Of a stretch of DNA of 64,000 bases, positions 8,198 through 64,000 are shown one piece after another; position 1 is the stretch's first letter; the number at the start of each line of letters is the position of its first letter. The stretch is from Sinohyriopsis cumingii (taxonomy: Eukaryota > Mollusca > Bivalvia > Unionida > Unionidae): the NCBI GenBank assembly GCA_028554795.2, contig CM068841.1, positions 22,058,308-22,122,307 on the forward strand, given 5' to 3'. Made by a program: the position numbers and the translations under genes. Below the pieces are notes generated by a model. That model did not search any database and had not been told where the DNA came from. It saw only the letters and a program-made list of their open reading frames with translations.

Positions 8198-8700
8198 GTA
8201 AGTCTGTAGAACACATATGGCAAGTCTGTAGAATGCATACAGTTATTGCCTTCTATTGGTATTGTGGTAATTCTGTAGAACACATATGGCAAGTCTGTAG
8301 AATGCATGCAGTTATTGCCTTCTATTGGTATTTTGTTAAGTCTGTAGAATGCATACAGTTATTGCCTTCTAATGGTATTTTGGTAAGTCTGTAGAATGCA
8401 TACAGTTATTGCTTCTATTGGTATTTTGGTATGTCTGTAGAATGCATACAGTTATTGTCTTCTGTTGGTATTTTGGTAAGTCTGTAGAACGCATACAATT
8501 ATTTCCTTCTATTGGTATTTTGGTAAGTCTGTTGAACGCATACAGTTATTGCTTCTACTGGTATTTTGGTAAGTCTTTAGAACACATGTTTATCACCTTC
8601 TGTTGGTATTTTGGTAAGTCTTTAGAACACATTCAGTTATTACCTTCTGTTGGTATTTTGGTGAGTCTGTGGAACACATACAGTTATCACCTTTTGCATG
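8198..8700. repeat. Minisatellite built from the exon 3 splice donor
   Basis: About ten units of roughly 47 bp, each starting like the real donor: ggtaagtctgtagaa, then gcatacagttattgccttct and attggtatttt. The first two units even keep the last exon bases (catatg). At least five later units retain a perfect ggtaagt, near 8380, 8475, 8522, 8569 and 8614. Others read ggtatgt, ggtgagt or gttaagt. Confidence 0.9.
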
Positions 8701-11879: not shown

Positions 11880-12240
11880 CTCTTTGGTTCTGAGTTTGCT
11901 TTCAGATACCATCATGTGTTAAGGTATGTGAAGTTTGCTTTCAGACTCCATTATGTGTTAGGTTTGTGAAGTTTCTTTTCAGTTACCAGTATGTGTTATG
12001 TGCAGTTTGCTTTCAGATACCATAAGGTGTTTTGGTATGTGAAGTTTGCTTTCCAAATACCATCATGTGTTAAGGTATGTGAGGTTTGCTTCAGATACAA
12101 TCACTTTGTTAAGGTATGTGAGGTTTGCCATCAGATACAATCATTTTGTTAAGGTATGTGAGGTTTGCTTTCCAATACCATCATGTGTTAAGGTATGTGA
12201 TGTTTGCCTTCAGATACAATCACTTTGTTAAGGTATGTTA
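11880..12240. repeat. 39-bp minisatellite with acceptor-like and donor-like words
   Basis: About nine units of 37-39 bp. The full unit is gtttgctttcag, then ataccatcatgtgttaag, then gtatgtgaa, so it reads like an acceptor, an 18-nt mini-exon and a donor. The first full unit has its putative exon at 11906-11923. Several units have lost one or other site. Confidence 0.88.
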
Positions 12241-13747: not shown

Positions 13748-13893
13748 GCCATCTATGACCGGATGTTCTCCTGGATTGTGACTCGCATTAATGAAGTCAT
13801 TGACCCCAAAGAGAGTGGAACAGGATATGTCGGCAAGGGAACTGTAATTGGTGTGCTGGATATATATGGGTTTGAAATCTTTCAAAACAACAG
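13748..13893 (+). CDS. Myo1d: Myo1d-like exon 5 (switch II)
   Basis: A 146-nt exon, entering in phase 0 and leaving after two bases of a Ser codon. The acceptor is tttctcttcag and the donor is cag|gtactt. It encodes [19 protein letters not shown], a short variable loop, then [24 protein letters not shown] is switch II, which contacts the ATP gamma-phosphate. The split Ser codon completes in exon 6 as S-FEQ, giving the invariant NNSFEQ. The exon end and its donor are tandemly duplicated 52 bp downstream. Confidence 0.96.
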
Positions 13894-13974
13894 GTACTTG
13901 AATTGTCACAGTAAATAAAAATGTTGAAATCTTTTAAAACAACAGGTACTTGAATTATCACTGTAAATAAAAAT
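13871..13974. repeat. 52-bp duplication spanning the exon 5 donor
   Basis: The last 23 exon bases plus 29 intron bases (13871-13922) are repeated at 13923-13974 with few changes, including caaaacaacaggtacttgaa / taaaacaacaggtacttgaa. This places a second copy of the donor at 13946. Confidence 0.93.
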
Positions 13975-15655
13975 GTTGAATACTGTCAAATATGTGCAGA
14001 TTTTGCAAGGAAACAAAATTTGCACTAGAATTCCCTTGAAAGTACCATATTTTGGTTCTTACAATTTGCACTTTTTATACCAGCTTTTCATATTTTCTGG
14101 AAGGGGTGTGTGCTCATTTTGCAGTATTAAAAATTATTTTAATAGTTTGATCTTATAAGAGAAACACAGCACTAAAGCAGCCTAAATACATCATATCCTT
14201 ATGAAATACTGAAATTGTTGTGTCATATCTATGTTGTTAATAGTTTTATTTAAAAAATTACAAATGCTTACAAACCTCTGTAGTCTTCTTCTTTGATCGT
14301 TTATGCTAATACATTGTTTTGTTTTACATCTCAGTGTACTTTTTGTTCCTTGACTCAGCAGGATATTCACATCTATTTCATCTTGAATATTTTCAAGCAG
14401 TGCAGAATACTGGTAACATTGAAACATGAAAATAAACAAAGAGTTATTGCATCAAAGCTGAAATATATTGATTATTCTTTGGAAAATAAATTTGGTTCTT
14501 TATTTACTTCTTTGTGGCTATATAGTTATAGTGATTAATGCTTTATTGGCTCAACTTGCTTTGTTAAGTTGTACTAAGTATAGGTACAATTCATTGTCTT
14601 GGTAAATTTGTAAAATTTGTAATTTATCTACTGGGGTGGGGGGGAATAAACTTGGTTCTTTCAGTGCATCCCCTGGGATTGCAAGATTGAGAGCCATAAA
14701 TCCCCTTGGTGTTAGAACTTGGGGTCAGATTGAGTAAAAAATTAAAACCTTGGTGTCAAAATTGGGAGTCGAGTTAAAAATGGTGGGTCTCTGATGCAGT
14801 GAGGGAACACTGTAATCTAGTTTTATTTTGCATAATAAATCACTGTATTTAATACTTCTTTGTGATTGTACAGTGATCAGTGCTTCAGTGACTCAGCATG
14901 TTTTACTCAGCATGGTGTTTTCAAAGGGTGTCTGTGCCAGCTAAAGCTTTGATGTACCCCAACATAATTATGATGCAGTGTCAGTGTAACAGTTAGCTTA
15001 GACATTGAGATATGTTTCAGAGGTGTCATGCTAGTCCAGAGAGATATAAATATAAATACCTGCACATAAAAATATAAATATGAATATTCACATAGTATCT
15101 TCAGTTCAGTGTTGGACTGAGTGTAAAAACCTCCAACAATTGAACAACAACTTAACCATCCTGACCTTTATACAAGTATTAAATACTGACAGAAATCAAG
15201 AGAGAAGCAGTCAAGCAGTATTCTGTTGTAAACCACTCATATAACAAATCATGATCAGTTCACAATCATGAATGGCTGAATGTTGTTTCCTGCTTAAAAT
15301 GTAGAGAAATCATCAAGATTTTGCAACTTTAGATATAATGTGCACATTATATGTCAGAACTAAGTTTTTCACTGCCTGGTGGGCCAAATATTAGGGGTTA
15401 TACATACCATAATATGACAAATGATGCAGCAAAGCTTGAAATGTAGAGGTCGCTGATCGGTAGGTTGCCCATTTATTTTACAGCAAGTACAGAGGATTTA
15501 CTTTATAAACATTTCATAAAAACTAACATTTTTTATTTGCCCTGCACTTACTTGGCTTGTTGGTGCCAATCACAAAATTTAAGTTTCTCAGTGTTACTAT
15601 AAATAAGGAGTAAAATTTGCTAGCAATGTGTGTGTTATATTTCATTGTAATATGT
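13975..15655 (+). other. Intron 5, unstructured part
   Basis: About 1.7 kb of AT-rich sequence in which no repeat, RNA gene or coding exon was recognised. The 41-bp acceptor array follows. Confidence 0.5.
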
Positions 15656-15665
15656 CATAAATTGG

Positions 15666-16230
15666 TTATATCTCAGTTTTGACAGCAAGGTGCTTGTTAC
15701 ATTGTGTTATATTTCAGTTTTGACAGCAAGGTGCTTGTTATATTGTGTTATATTTCAGTTTTGACAGCAAGGTGCTTGTTATATTGTGTTATATTTCAGT
15801 TTTGACAGCAAGGTGCTTGTTATATTGTGTTATATTTCAGTTTTGACAGCAAGGTGCTTGTTATATTGTGTTATATTTCAGTTTTGACAGCAAGGTGCTT
15901 GTTATATTGTGTTATATTTCAGTTTTGACAGCAAGGTGCTTGTTATATTGTGTTATATTTCAGTTTTGACAGCAAAGTGCTTGTTATATTGCATTATAAT
16001 ATTCTTGGTTATATTTCAGTTTTGACAGCAAGGTGCTTGTTATATTGTGTTATATTTCAGTTTTGACAGCAAGATGCTTGTTATATTGTGTTATAATATT
16101 CTTGGTTATGTTTCAGTTTTGACAGCAAGGTGCTTGTTATATTGTGTTATAATATGTCTTGGTTATATTTCAGTTTTGACAGCAAGGTGCTTGTTATATT
16201 GCTTTATAATATGCCTTGGTTATATTTCAG
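15666..16230. repeat. 41-bp minisatellite built from the exon 6 acceptor
   Basis: Units of 41 bp (ttttgacagcaaggtgcttg, ttatattgtgttatatttca, g), later expanded to 52-57 bp. Acceptor-like words (mostly ttatatttcag) end at 15676, 15717, 15758, 15799, 15840, 15881, 15922, 15963, 16019, 16060, 16116 and 16173, before the real one at 16230. The bases after each decoy (ttttgacagc) resemble the true exon start (cttcgaacag). Confidence 0.94.
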
Positions 16231-16456
16231 CTTCGAACAGTTATGCATCAACTACTGCAATGAGAAGTTACAGCAACTGTTCATTGAACTAGTCCTGAAA
16301 CAGGAACAGGAGGAATACATGAAAGAGGGGATTGCCTGGGTTCATGTAGACTATTTCAACAACAAGATTATATGTGACCTCATCGAACAGCCACATAAGG
16401 GAATACTTGCCATATTGGACGAAGCTTGTCTGAATGTTGGCAAAGTCACTGATGAG
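16231..16456 (+). CDS. Myo1d: Myo1d-like exon 6 (relay helix region)
   Basis: A 226-nt exon (1 + 75 codons). The acceptor is ttatatttcag, immediately after a 41-bp array containing a dozen near-identical acceptors. It encodes [68 protein letters not shown]: the relay helix and following region of class I myosins. The donor at 16457 is gtctgt, which is weak. The reading frame stays open for 35 more codons and then meets a TAG that directly abuts a strong gtaagt (16565). The boundary at 16456 is preferred because VTDE continues as MFLSAM in exon 7, as in other class I myosins. Confidence 0.94.
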
Positions 16457-58759: not shown

Positions 58760-61700
58760 CTTTATATGATAATCTCTTACTCCATACAATTCATTGCATC
58801 TGACTTTAATTGATGATAACTTCATGTGGTAATCTCTTACTCCATACAGTTCATTGCATTTGACTTTAATTGATGATACCCTCATGTGGTAATCTCTTAC
58901 TCCATACAGTTCATTGAGTTTGACTTTAATTGATGATACCCTCATGTGGTAATCTCTTACTCCATACAGTTCATTGCATTTGACTTTGATGACAACCTCA
59001 TGTGGTAATCTCTTACTCCATACAGTTCATTGAGTTTGACTTTAATTGATGATACTCTCATGTGGTAATCTCTTACTCCATACAGTTCATTGCATTTGAC
59101 TTTAATTGATGATACCCTCATGTGGTAATCTCTTACTCCATACAGTTCATTGAGTTTGACTTTAATTGATGATACCCTCATGTGGTAATCTCTTACTCCA
59201 TACAGTTCATTGCATTTGACTTTGATGACAACCTCATGTGGTAATCTCTTACTCCATACAGTTCATTGAGTTTGACTTTAATTGATGATACCCTCATGTG
59301 GTAATCTCTTACTCCATACAGTTCATTGCATTTGACTTTAATTGATGATACCCTCATGTGGTAATCTCTTACTCCATACAGTTCATTGCATTTGACTTTG
59401 ATGACAACCTCATGTGGTAATCTCTTACTCCATACAGTTCATTGAGTTTGACTTTAATTGATGATACCCTCATGTGGTAATCTCTTACTCCATACAATTC
59501 ATTGCATTTGACTTTAATTGATGATACCCTCATGTGGTAATCTCTTACTCCATACAGTTCATTGAGTTTGACTTTAATTGATGATACCCTCATGTGGTAA
59601 TCTCTTACTCCATACAGTTCATTGCATTTGACTTTAATTGATGATAACCTCATGTGGTAATCTCTTACTCCATACAATTCATTGCATTTGACTTTAATTG
59701 ATGATACCCTCATGTGGTAATCTCTTGCTCCATACAGTTCATTGCATTTGACTTTAATTGATGATAACCTCATGTGGTAATCTCTTACTCCATACAGTTC
59801 ATTGCATTTGACTTTGATGACAACCTCGTGTGGTAATCTCTTACTCCATACAGTTCATTGCATTTGACTTTAATTGATGATACCCTCATGTGGTAATCTC
59901 TTTCTCCATACAGTTCATTGAGTTTGACTTTAATTGATGATACCCTCATGTGGTAATCTCTTACTCCATACAGTTCATTGCATTTGACTTTGATGACAAC
60001 CTCATGTGGTAATCTCTTACTCCATACAGTTCATTGAGTTTGACTTTAATTGATGATACCCTCATGTGGTAATCTCTTACTCCATACAATTCATTGCATT
60101 TGACTTTAACTGATGATACCCTCATGTGGTAATCTCTTACTCCATACAGTTCATTGAGTTTGACTTTAATTGATGATACCCTCATGTGGTAATCTCTTAC
60201 TCCATACAGTTCATTGCATTTGACTTTAATTGATGATAACCTCATGTGGTAATCTCTTACTCCATACAATTCATTGCATTTGACTTTAATTGATGATACC
60301 CTCATGTGGTAATCTCTTGCTCCATACAGTTCATTGCATTTGACTTTAATTGATGATAACTTCATGTGGTAATCTCTTACTCCATACAGTTCATTGAGTT
60401 TGACTTTAATTGATGATACCCTCATGTGGTAATCTCATACTCCATACAGTTCATTGCATTTGACTTTAATTGATGATACCCTCATGTGGTAATCTCGTAC
60501 TCCATACAATTCATTGCATTTGACTTTAATTGATGATACCCTCATGTGGTAATCTCTTACTCCATACAGTTCATTGCATTTGACTTTAATTGATGATAAC
60601 TTCATGTGGTAATCTCTTACTCCATGCAATTCATTGAGTTTGACTTTAATTGATGATACCCTCATGTGGTAATCTCTTACTCCATACAGTTCATTGCATT
60701 TGACTTTAATTGATGATAACTTCATGTGGTAATCTCTTACTCCATACAGTTCATTGAGTTTGACTTTAATTGATGATACCCTCATGTGGTAATCTCTTAC
60801 TCCATACAGTTCATTGCATTTGACTTTAATTGATGATAACCTCATGTGGTAATCTCTTACTCCATACAGTTCATTGCATTTGACTTTAATTGATGATACC
60901 CTCATGTGGTAATCTCTTACTCCATACAGTTCATTGCATTTGACTTTAATTGATGATAACTTCATGTGGTAATCTCTTACTCCATGCAATTCATTGAGTT
61001 TGACTTTAATTGATGATACCCTCATGTGGTAATCTCTTACTCCATACAGTTCATTGCATTTGACTTTAATTGATGATAACTTCATGTGGTAATCTCTTAC
61101 TCCATACAGTTCATTGAGTTTGACTTTAATTGATGATACCCTCATGTGGTAATCTCTTACTCCATACAGTTCATTGAGTTTGACTTTAATTGATGATACC
61201 CTCATGTGGTAATCTCTTACTCCATACAGTTCATTGCATTTGACTTTAATTGATGATAACTTCATGTGGTAATCTCTTACTCCATACAATTCATTGCATT
61301 TGACTTTAATTGATGATACTCTCATGTGGTAATCTCTTACTCCATACAGTTCATTGCATTTGACTTTAATTGATGATACCCTCATATGGTAATCTCTTAC
61401 TCCATACAGTTCATTGCATTTGACTTTGATGACAACCTCATGTGGTAATCTCTTACTCCATACAGTTCATTGAGTTTGACTTTAATTGATGATACTCTCA
61501 TGTGGTAATCTCTTACTCCATACAGTTCATTGCATTTGACTTTAATTGATGATACCCTCATGTGGTAATCTCTTACTCCATACAGTTCATTGCATTTGAC
61601 TTTGATGACAACCTCATGTGGTAATCTCTTACTCCATACAGTTCATTGAGTTTGACTTTAATTGATGATACCCTCATGTGGTAATCTCTTACTCCATACA

Positions 61701-64000
61701 ATTCATTGCATTTGACTTTAATTGATGATACCCTCATGTGGTAATCTCTTACTCCATACAATTCATTGCATTTGACTTTAATTGATGATACCCTCATGTG
61801 GTAATCTCTTGCTCCATACAGTTCATTGCATTTGACTTTAATTGATGATAACCTCATGTGGTAATCTCTTACTCCATACAGTTCATTGCATTTGACTTTG
61901 ATGACAACCTCGTGTGGTAATCTCTTACTCCATACAGTTCATTGCATTTGACTTTAATTGATGATACCCTCATGTGGTAATCTCTTTCTCCATACAGTTC
62001 ATTGAGTTTGACTTTAATTGATGATACCCTCATGTGGTAATCTCTTACTCCATATAGTTCATTGCATTTGACTTTGATGACAACCTCATGTGGTAATCTC
62101 TTACTCCATACAGTTCATTGAGTTTGACTTTAATTGATGATACCCTCATGTGGTAATCTCTTACTCCATACAATTCATTGCATTTGACTTTAACTGATGA
62201 TACCCTCATGTGGTAATCTCTTACTCCATACAGTTCATTGAGTTTGACTTTAATTGATGATACCCTCATGTGGTAATCTCTTACTCCATACAGTTCATTG
62301 CATTTGACTTTAATTGATGATAACCTCATGTGGTAATCTCTTACTCCATACAATTCATTGCATTTGACTTTAATTGATGATACCCTCATGTGGTAATCTC
62401 TTGCTCCATACAGTTCATTGCATTTGACTTTAATTGATGATAACCTCATGTGGTAATCTCTTACTCCATACAGTTCATTGAGTTTGACTTTAATTGATGA
62501 TACCCTCATGTGGTAATCTCTTACTCCATACAGTTCATTGCATTTGACTTTAATTGATGATACCCTCATGTGGTAATCTCGTACTCCATACAATTCATTG
62601 CATTTGACTTTAATTGATGATACCCTCATGTGGTAATCTCTTACTCCATACAGTTCATTGCATTTGACTTTAATTGATGATAACTTCATGTGGTAATCTC
62701 TTACTCCATGCAATTCATTGAGTTTGACTTTAATTGATGATACCCTCATGTGGTAATCTCTTACTCCATACAGTTCATTGCATTTGACTTTAATTGATGA
62801 TAACTTCATGTGGTAATCTCTTACTCCATACAGTTCATTGAGTTTGACTTTAATTGATGATACCCTCATGTGGTAATCTCTTACTCCATACAGTTCATTG
62901 AGTTTGACTTTAATTGATGATACCCTCATGTGGTAATCTCTTACTCCATACAGTTCATTGCATTTGACTTTAATTGATGATAACTTCATGTGGTAATCTC
63001 TTACTCCATACAATTCATTGCATTTGACTTTAATTGATGATAACCTCATGTGGTAATCCCTTACTCCATACAGTTCATTGAGTTTGACTTTAATTGATGA
63101 TACCCTCATGTGGTAATCTCTTACTCCATACAGTTCATTGAGTTTGACTTTAATTGATGATACCCTCATGTGGTAATCTCTTACTCCATACAGTTCATTG
63201 CATTTGACTTTAATTGATGATACCCTCATGTGGTAATCTCTTACTCCATACAGTTCATTGCATTTGACTTTAATTGATGATAACCTCATGTGGTAATCTC
63301 TTACTCCATACAGTTCATTGAGTTTGACTTTAATTGATGATACCCTCATGTGGTAATCTCTTACTCCATACAGTTCATTGCATTTGACTTTAATTGATGA
63401 TACCCTCATGTGGTAATCTCGTACTCCATACAATTCATTGCATTTGACTTTAATTGATGATACCCTCGTGTGGTAATCTCTTACTCCATACAGTTCATTG
63501 CATTTGACTTTAATTGATGATAACTTCATGTGGTAATCTCTTACTCCATGCAGTTCATTGAGTTTGACTTTAATTGATGATACCCTCATGTGGTAATCTC
63601 TTACTCCATACAGTTCATTGCATTTGACTTTAATTGATGATAACTTCATGTGGTAATCTCTTACTCCATACAGTTCATTGAGTTTGACTTTAATTGATGA
63701 TACCCTCATGTGGTAATCTCTTACTCCATACAGTTCATTGAGTTTGACTTTAATTGATGATACCCTCATGTGGTAATCTCTTACTCCATACAGTTCATTG
63801 CATTTGACTTTAATTGATGATAACTTCATGTGGTAATCTCTTACTCCATACAATTCATTGCATTTGACTTTAATTGATGATGACCTCATGTGGTAATCTC
63901 TTACTCCATACAGTTCATTGCATTTGACTTTAATTGATGATACCCTCATGTGGTAATCTCTTACTCCGTACAGTTCATTGAGTTTAACTTTAATTGATGA
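58760..64000. repeat. 60-bp satellite with higher-order structure (runs off window)
   Basis: About 88 units of 60 bp (gtaatctcttactccataca, gttcattgcatttgacttta, attgatgataccctcatgtg). Some units are 56 bp, with a 4-bp loss giving gactttgatgacaacctc. Rare variants (cttgctcc, ctttctcc, ctcgtactcc, ccatgcaatt) recur exactly 2084 bp apart. Minus-strand frames up to 634 codons are open because 60 is a multiple of three and end at 56-bp units. No protein is inferred. The array continues past 64000. Confidence 0.96.

Follow-up and report, generated by a model that had tools for sequence, protein, structure and literature searches.

The stretch of DNA analysed here (termed the window) comprises 64,000 nucleotides from the genome of the bivalve Sinohyriopsis cumingii and includes exons of a myosin I gene, one of which, starting after position 16230, codes for a portion of a class I myosin motor (the top PDB matches are myosin-Ic and myosin-Ib). 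The codon formed across the splice junction, AG|C, specifies the serine of NNSFEQ. Directly 5' of this motor exon the window sequence contains twelve decoy acceptors, made up of TTTCAG or TCTCAG plus TTTTGACAGC, and these form part of a tandem array that runs up to the exon itself. The relevant features, all on the forward strand, are as follows:

13748..13893, + strand: upstream myosin I exon (AIYDRMFSW...), with donor CAG|GTACTT (donor score 9.01)
13872..13975, + strand: donor-side duplication, two 52-bp copies identical at 49/52 positions, with a second donor after 13945
13894..16230, + strand: intron, each end of which carries an exon-edge duplication
15611..15676, + strand: diverged 5'-most unit (from unit alignment), ending in the decoy ttatatctcag, which has the lowest acceptor score (1.33)
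15677..15963, + strand: seven 41-bp units, each ending in TTATATTTCAG; six are identical (u2-u7) and one has a single change
15964..16173, + strand: four units (56, 41, 56 and 57 bp), all with a decoy acceptor at their 3' end
16174..16230, + strand: last 57-bp unit, closed by the working acceptor, whose AG occupies 16229-16230
16231..16456, + strand: myosin I motor exon (...VTDE), with predicted donor GAG|GTCTGT (donor score 8.15)
15676, 15717, 15758, 15799, 15840, 15881, 15922, 15963, 16019, 16060, 16116 and 16173, + strand: ends of the decoy AGs

Successive acceptors are spaced by 41 bp (seven times), 56, 41, 56, 57 and 57 bp, with the final 57 bp leading to the true acceptor at 16230. An initial, sequence-only reading had described twelve acceptor copies at 41-57-bp spacing, the last of them 57 bp before the real acceptor, and both the mapped positions and shuffled controls agree with that description: within the window, TTATATTTCAG has 11 occurrences (in 10 decoys and at the true site), as compared with 0.19 expected from shuffles, and TTTCAGTTTTGACAGC, allowing at most 2 mismatches, occurs 12 times, as compared with 0.12 expected. 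Tandem Repeats Finder scores the array at up to 700. A search of the 2.9-Gb assembly, in which the best candidates were scored, places the array at this one site only; the four other matches are different AT-rich minisatellites (68-71% identity, in three arrays).

The units come in a long form, 56 or 57 bp in length and located on the exon side, and a short form of 41 bp, from which 15 or 16 of those bases are missing and which occupies the middle. The 5' flank at 15611-15676 aligns along its entire length as a diverged long unit, and the final 44 bases of the intron match those preceding the decoy at 16173 at 41 of 44 positions (counted by eye). A uniform interior bounded by long units is the usual picture for a minisatellite. 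The array is a genuine minisatellite, and the working acceptor lies within its last unit.

The same intron is also duplicated at its other end. The 52-bp unit found there consists of the last 22 coding bases of the upstream exon and 30 intron bases, so that the donor is included, and both resulting donors (13893 and 13945) score 9.01, which corresponds to the 64th percentile of sampled donors.

Sampled exons and splice-site matrices

Splice sites were scored with acceptor and donor matrices built from 84 exons of the S. cumingii genome, the edges of which were predicted rather than taken from cDNA. These exons consist of profile hits for myosin (29), chaperonin (28) and kinesin (20), obtained with PF00063, PF00118 and PF00225, together with 7 exons of the one gene in question in the window; the kinesin hits are the first 20 of 122 matches listed. 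Among the 77 profile hits, 19 contain internal stops and were trimmed to their longest open piece; two long single-frame hits taken to be intronless (L043 and L047) were left out, and L011 was replaced by the same exon as it stands in the window. One exon has no donor candidate, so that donors number 83, and some of the sampled exons are paralogues or neighbours within a single gene. The resulting matrices reproduce the ordinary consensus sequences, TTTCAG|G and CAG|GTAAGT.

Counts of branch sites and of AG-free zones refer to the 81 other acceptors that score above 4. Near-copies of exon edges were defined as matches to a 30-mer with at most 6 edits within 1.4 kb (within 350-bp flanks for the 20 kinesin loci). 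Arrays close to an edge were compared with arrays in same-size comparison windows at offsets of 200, 500 and 900, which were the analyst's choice (ten other offsets were also computed).

Exon-edge repeats in the genome

Of the 84 acceptors, only that of the myosin exon, at 16230, has a near-copy of its exon edge; of the 83 donors, five have one (L008, L023, L026, L054 and the window's own donor at 13893). The same unit recurs in L023 and L026, which appear to be paralogues, so that the independent donor cases number four. A reverse-strand control yielded no edge near-copies. The difference in near-copies between acceptors and donors is not significant (1/83 with the target left out versus 5/83, p = 0.21).

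In L054, a chaperonin (TCP1 family) gene, an array at 1655-1946 with a 36-bp unit and about 8 copies begins within the coding sequence (RIAKATGG). The related myosin exons L023 (1768-2327) and L026 (1771-1992), which lie on one contig, have a common 56-bp donor-side unit in 10 and 4 copies, respectively, a difference that is consistent with a change in copy number after duplication. L008 (1744-1820) has a 19-bp repeat of about 4 copies on the donor side of a myosin exon end.

Minisatellites in general are abundant here, covering 22% of the window when its terminal satellite is excluded and 29% when it is included; that satellite (58770-64000) consists of 88 copies of a 60-bp unit and reaches the end of the window. 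Another array, at 8287-8687, has a 47-bp unit in which the donor-like word TGGTAAGTCTG occurs about 8 times; it lies at no exon edge that was found. Arrays are scarce at both exon edges, perhaps more so at acceptors than at donors. Arrays reach into the last 30 nt before an acceptor in 2 of 84 cases (the myosin target and L044), versus 27 of 212 same-size windows further upstream (Fisher p = 0.005; 1/83 with the target excluded, p = 0.001), and adjoin donors in 5 of 83 cases, versus 33 of 209 comparison windows (p = 0.03). Within this sample, the myosin acceptor array is an exception.

Splice-like words within intronic arrays were also counted, on the sense and antisense strands of 69 arrays. 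The raw comparison gives p = 0.006 for acceptors and p = 0.23 for donors; with 6 exon-edge arrays removed (63 left), it gives p = 0.02 and p = 0.71. Relative to shuffles of each unit, the 63 arrays show no significant excess of either acceptors (p = 0.15) or donors (p = 0.29), so that the idea of a general enrichment of such words is unsupported.

A further array, at 11893-12238, has a 39-bp unit in 8.9 copies; on the gene's sense strand the unit holds an acceptor scoring 8.3 and, 18 nt apart from it, a strong donor scoring 11.2. It might constitute a row of potential pseudo-exons within the intron that precedes the 13748 exon. A common origin of this array with the acceptor of the next exon is unsupported: the alignment score, the best of five boundaries, is reached by 9.4% of random segments.

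Origin of the array

The explanation that accounts best for these observations, and which is considered likely, is that the array is an acceptor-side 'mirage', that is, a tandem duplication at the intron-exon border that captured the 3' splice site within its repeat unit and that has been tolerated since. Such an array would have arisen through unequal exchange or replication slippage and would then have spread into the intron, the exon side being under constraint. It is economical to suppose that the array derives from the acceptor region of this very exon, because the conserved exon must have had an acceptor beforehand and its acceptor now resides within the last unit.

The sequence-only reading had likewise proposed that the array grew from the exon's acceptor, partly on the grounds that the ttttgacagc following each decoy resembles the start of the exon. 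Two things speak for the proposal as a whole: the working acceptor falls within the last unit, and at the intron's other end the donor is duplicated together with 22 coding bases. The resemblance itself is another matter. Of 83 other exon starts, 5 score as high against ttttgacagc (3 when codon degeneracy is allowed for), and the same level of match occurs at 605 of 7067 window positions that follow an AG (1.7% of 3532 positions with codon degeneracy). Both the plain and the codon-degenerate anchored alignments thus leave an exon-start origin of the unit's first bases weak. Hence, although the acceptor-side unit clearly includes the working acceptor, its first bases can be traced to the exon only tentatively.

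This faint resemblance, along with the density of minisatellites in this genome, is what might be expected had the array instead been born within the intron, containing no exon-derived part and having reached the acceptor by chance. Such an origin appears unlikely, yet it retains some plausibility. The working site lies inside the array, as the 41/44 identity to the sequence before the decoy at 16173 indicates; the scarcity of arrays at acceptors makes chance contact improbable; and the donor of the very same intron is a clear exon-edge duplication. The room left for an intron-born array is nevertheless widened by the raw sense-strand difference seen among ordinary arrays and by the non-significance of the asymmetry between acceptor and donor edges.

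Choice of the working AG

If the array is a mirage at the acceptor, it would have been tolerated since splicing keeps picking the exon-proximal AG. How that AG is picked is not evident from the acceptor words. Scored with the matrix derived from this genome, the true acceptor reaches 6.37, the 13th percentile of other acceptors, while most decoys of the 41-bp type reach 7.85, the 23rd percentile. The decoys range from 1.33 for the oldest to 7.85, the nearest, at 16173, scoring 4.36 (4th percentile). Because 9 of the 12 decoys outscore the true acceptor, the acceptor word alone cannot explain the choice.

Selection of the AG by scanning, and the AG-free zones associated with it, have been described previously (PMC1431707). 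The last unit contains a candidate branch site, CTTTAT, 25 nt from the exon. A yTnAy word located at 17-45 nt and within an AG-free zone is absent for 11 of the 12 decoys and present for the oldest, diverged one; of the long units, the last and the oldest are the only ones with such a word in their AG-free zone. At the decoys at 16116 and 16173 the word corresponding to CTTTAT reads TGTTAT, and the 41-bp units contain only imperfect branch-site candidates, at 19 or 9 nt. As a hypothesis, the branch site might therefore single out the true AG. The argument is a weak one, given that a yTnAy word at 17-45 nt is present at 36 of 81 other acceptors, and that AG-free zones no longer than those of the 41-bp decoys occur at 23 of the 81. 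For the latter reason a short AG-free zone is likewise not decisive as the cause of silence of the 41-bp decoys. Concealment of the decoys by RNA structure is unsupported: the predicted folding of the array is not unusual (z = -0.80), and 4 of 20 shuffled sequences reach an equal or better fold.

Exon definition favours the AG nearest to the exon's own donor. For an exon of 226 nt, this would be a simpler reason for the choice of the last AG than the branch site. Most likely the two would act together, with only the last AG yielding a 226-nt exon beside its donor. Either way, twelve extra acceptors, nine of which score above the true one, constitute a natural test of AG choice, in which branch-site scanning can be set against exon definition.

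Predicted consequences of decoy use

Use of the two nearest decoys would keep the reading frame open: the decoy at 16173 would add 57 nt, or 19 codons, and that at 16116 would add 114 nt, or 38 codons. The other ten extensions either shift the frame (seven) or, although frame-keeping by length, contain stops (three). The initial statement that decoys would mostly shift the frame thus applies to 7 of the 12, and needs to be qualified for the three that stay in frame with stops and for the nearest two, which are in frame and open.

These two open extensions, the nine decoys that outscore the true site, and the rarity here of acceptor-adjacent arrays (persistence of a rare one might reflect some benefit) might suggest, in line with the sequence-only proposal that copy number could tune splicing, that the decoys serve as a copy-number-dependent control, either through competition with the true site or through isoforms with 19 or 38 additional codons. 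This is improbable. Ten of the extensions shift the frame or bring in stops; both in-frame decoys are among the three lowest scores (4.36 and 5.15); the inserted residues would, on the analyst's reading, fall between GFEIFQNNS and the relay helix of the motor, where they would likely be damaging; and mirages in lancelets have been reported without an effect on splicing. A broader scenario is judged very improbable: exon-edge minisatellites would be widespread in this genome at both intron ends and purged at acceptors, the myosin case having escaped because a good branch site is present in its last unit alone, and the in-frame decoys would occasionally give rise to motor variants with 19 or 38 additional residues at a level set by the array.

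The unit also carries a donor-like word, AAG|GTGCTT, 13 nt past the AG, which is present in 10 of 12 units and altered in two. Together with the acceptor it could delimit a 13-nt micro-exon, which would be either included or used as a stepping stone for stepwise removal of the intron. The word scores 7.57 (39th percentile of the genome's donors), and 2 of the 69 arrays (the myosin array and that at 11893-12238) pair an acceptor with a donor on the sense strand, versus none on the antisense strand; a 13-nt insert would shift the frame, however, and two arrays are too few to constitute an excess, so that this idea is scarcely credible. Nor is there much to recommend an assembly artefact, in which copies were collapsed or multiplied by the assembler: although the 41-bp units are near-identical and were judged from the assembly, the array spans no more than about 600 bp, its variant units (41, 56 and 57 bp) carry private changes, and the contigs are of chromosome size (103 Mb here).

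The array is more probably a by-product of a genome rich in minisatellites, either neutral or of slight cost, than a device for controlling splicing.

Relation to known systems

Tandem duplications at exon edges, termed 'mirages', have been described for the globin, Adh3, troponin C and PGBD5 genes of lancelets, where they occur on either side of the exon, in many cases include AG or GT, and are reported as not disturbing regular splicing (PMC3087553, PMC3902484). The myosin locus resembles these, as they are presented in the portions cited, in that tandem exon-edge units carry AG/GT signals, the ends of the cluster escape homogenisation, and the authentic site stays at the exon. Its units contain twelve decoy AGs on the acceptor side and, on the donor side, a second donor that scores like the first; its interior units (u2-u7) are identical and are flanked on either side by longer, more variable ones; and at the donor edge of the intron (13894..16230) the repeat spans the boundary in the manner by which mirages are defined, 22 coding bases being part of the unit. 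It differs in host phylum, being in a mollusc (a muscle-type myosin fragment of this genome has squid and scallop structures, PDB 3i5f and 1b7t, as its best matches); in scale, with 12 decoys and units of 41-57 bp as compared, in the lancelet accounts cited, with two BflGb6 haplotypes that have three and six units, each of 150-160 bp, and with units of 10-72 bp in Adh3; and, as regards the definition of a mirage, in that the exonic part of the acceptor-side unit is weakly supported. Among the matches listed in the literature search, exon-edge minisatellites under that description were found only for lancelets, with no mollusc case.

Other systems share single aspects with the array. The gain of introns or of new splice positions by tandem duplication in Drosophila and potato likewise involves copying of splice-site sequence (PMC2891723, PMC4974935); those cases, as described in the sections cited, concern new intron positions, whereas the myosin intron and exon appear unchanged and the copies stay intronic. 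The ABCA7 VNTR (PMC5954066) and the 7-bp repeat in dog LHX3 (PMC3223203) are also intronic tandem repeats, which affect splicing of their host genes; the cited parts of these reports mention no copy of a working acceptor, such as the myosin array contains. The C. elegans repeat CeRep25B is an intronic minisatellite near alternative exons and is linked there to splicing choices, but is described, in the passages cited, with regulatory heptamers rather than with copies of splice sites (PMC4039745). In NAGNAG tandem acceptors, as characterised in the portion cited (PMC3250501), several AGs compete for one exon, as they might here, but at a spacing of three bases as opposed to an array of 600 bp.

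Among these systems the myosin locus is probably best filed with the mirages: its donor edge fits their definition, and its acceptor edge has both the signals and the array structure. This places exon-edge minisatellites in a mollusc and provides a first rough frequency for them within one genome: one acceptor among 84 and five donors among 83.
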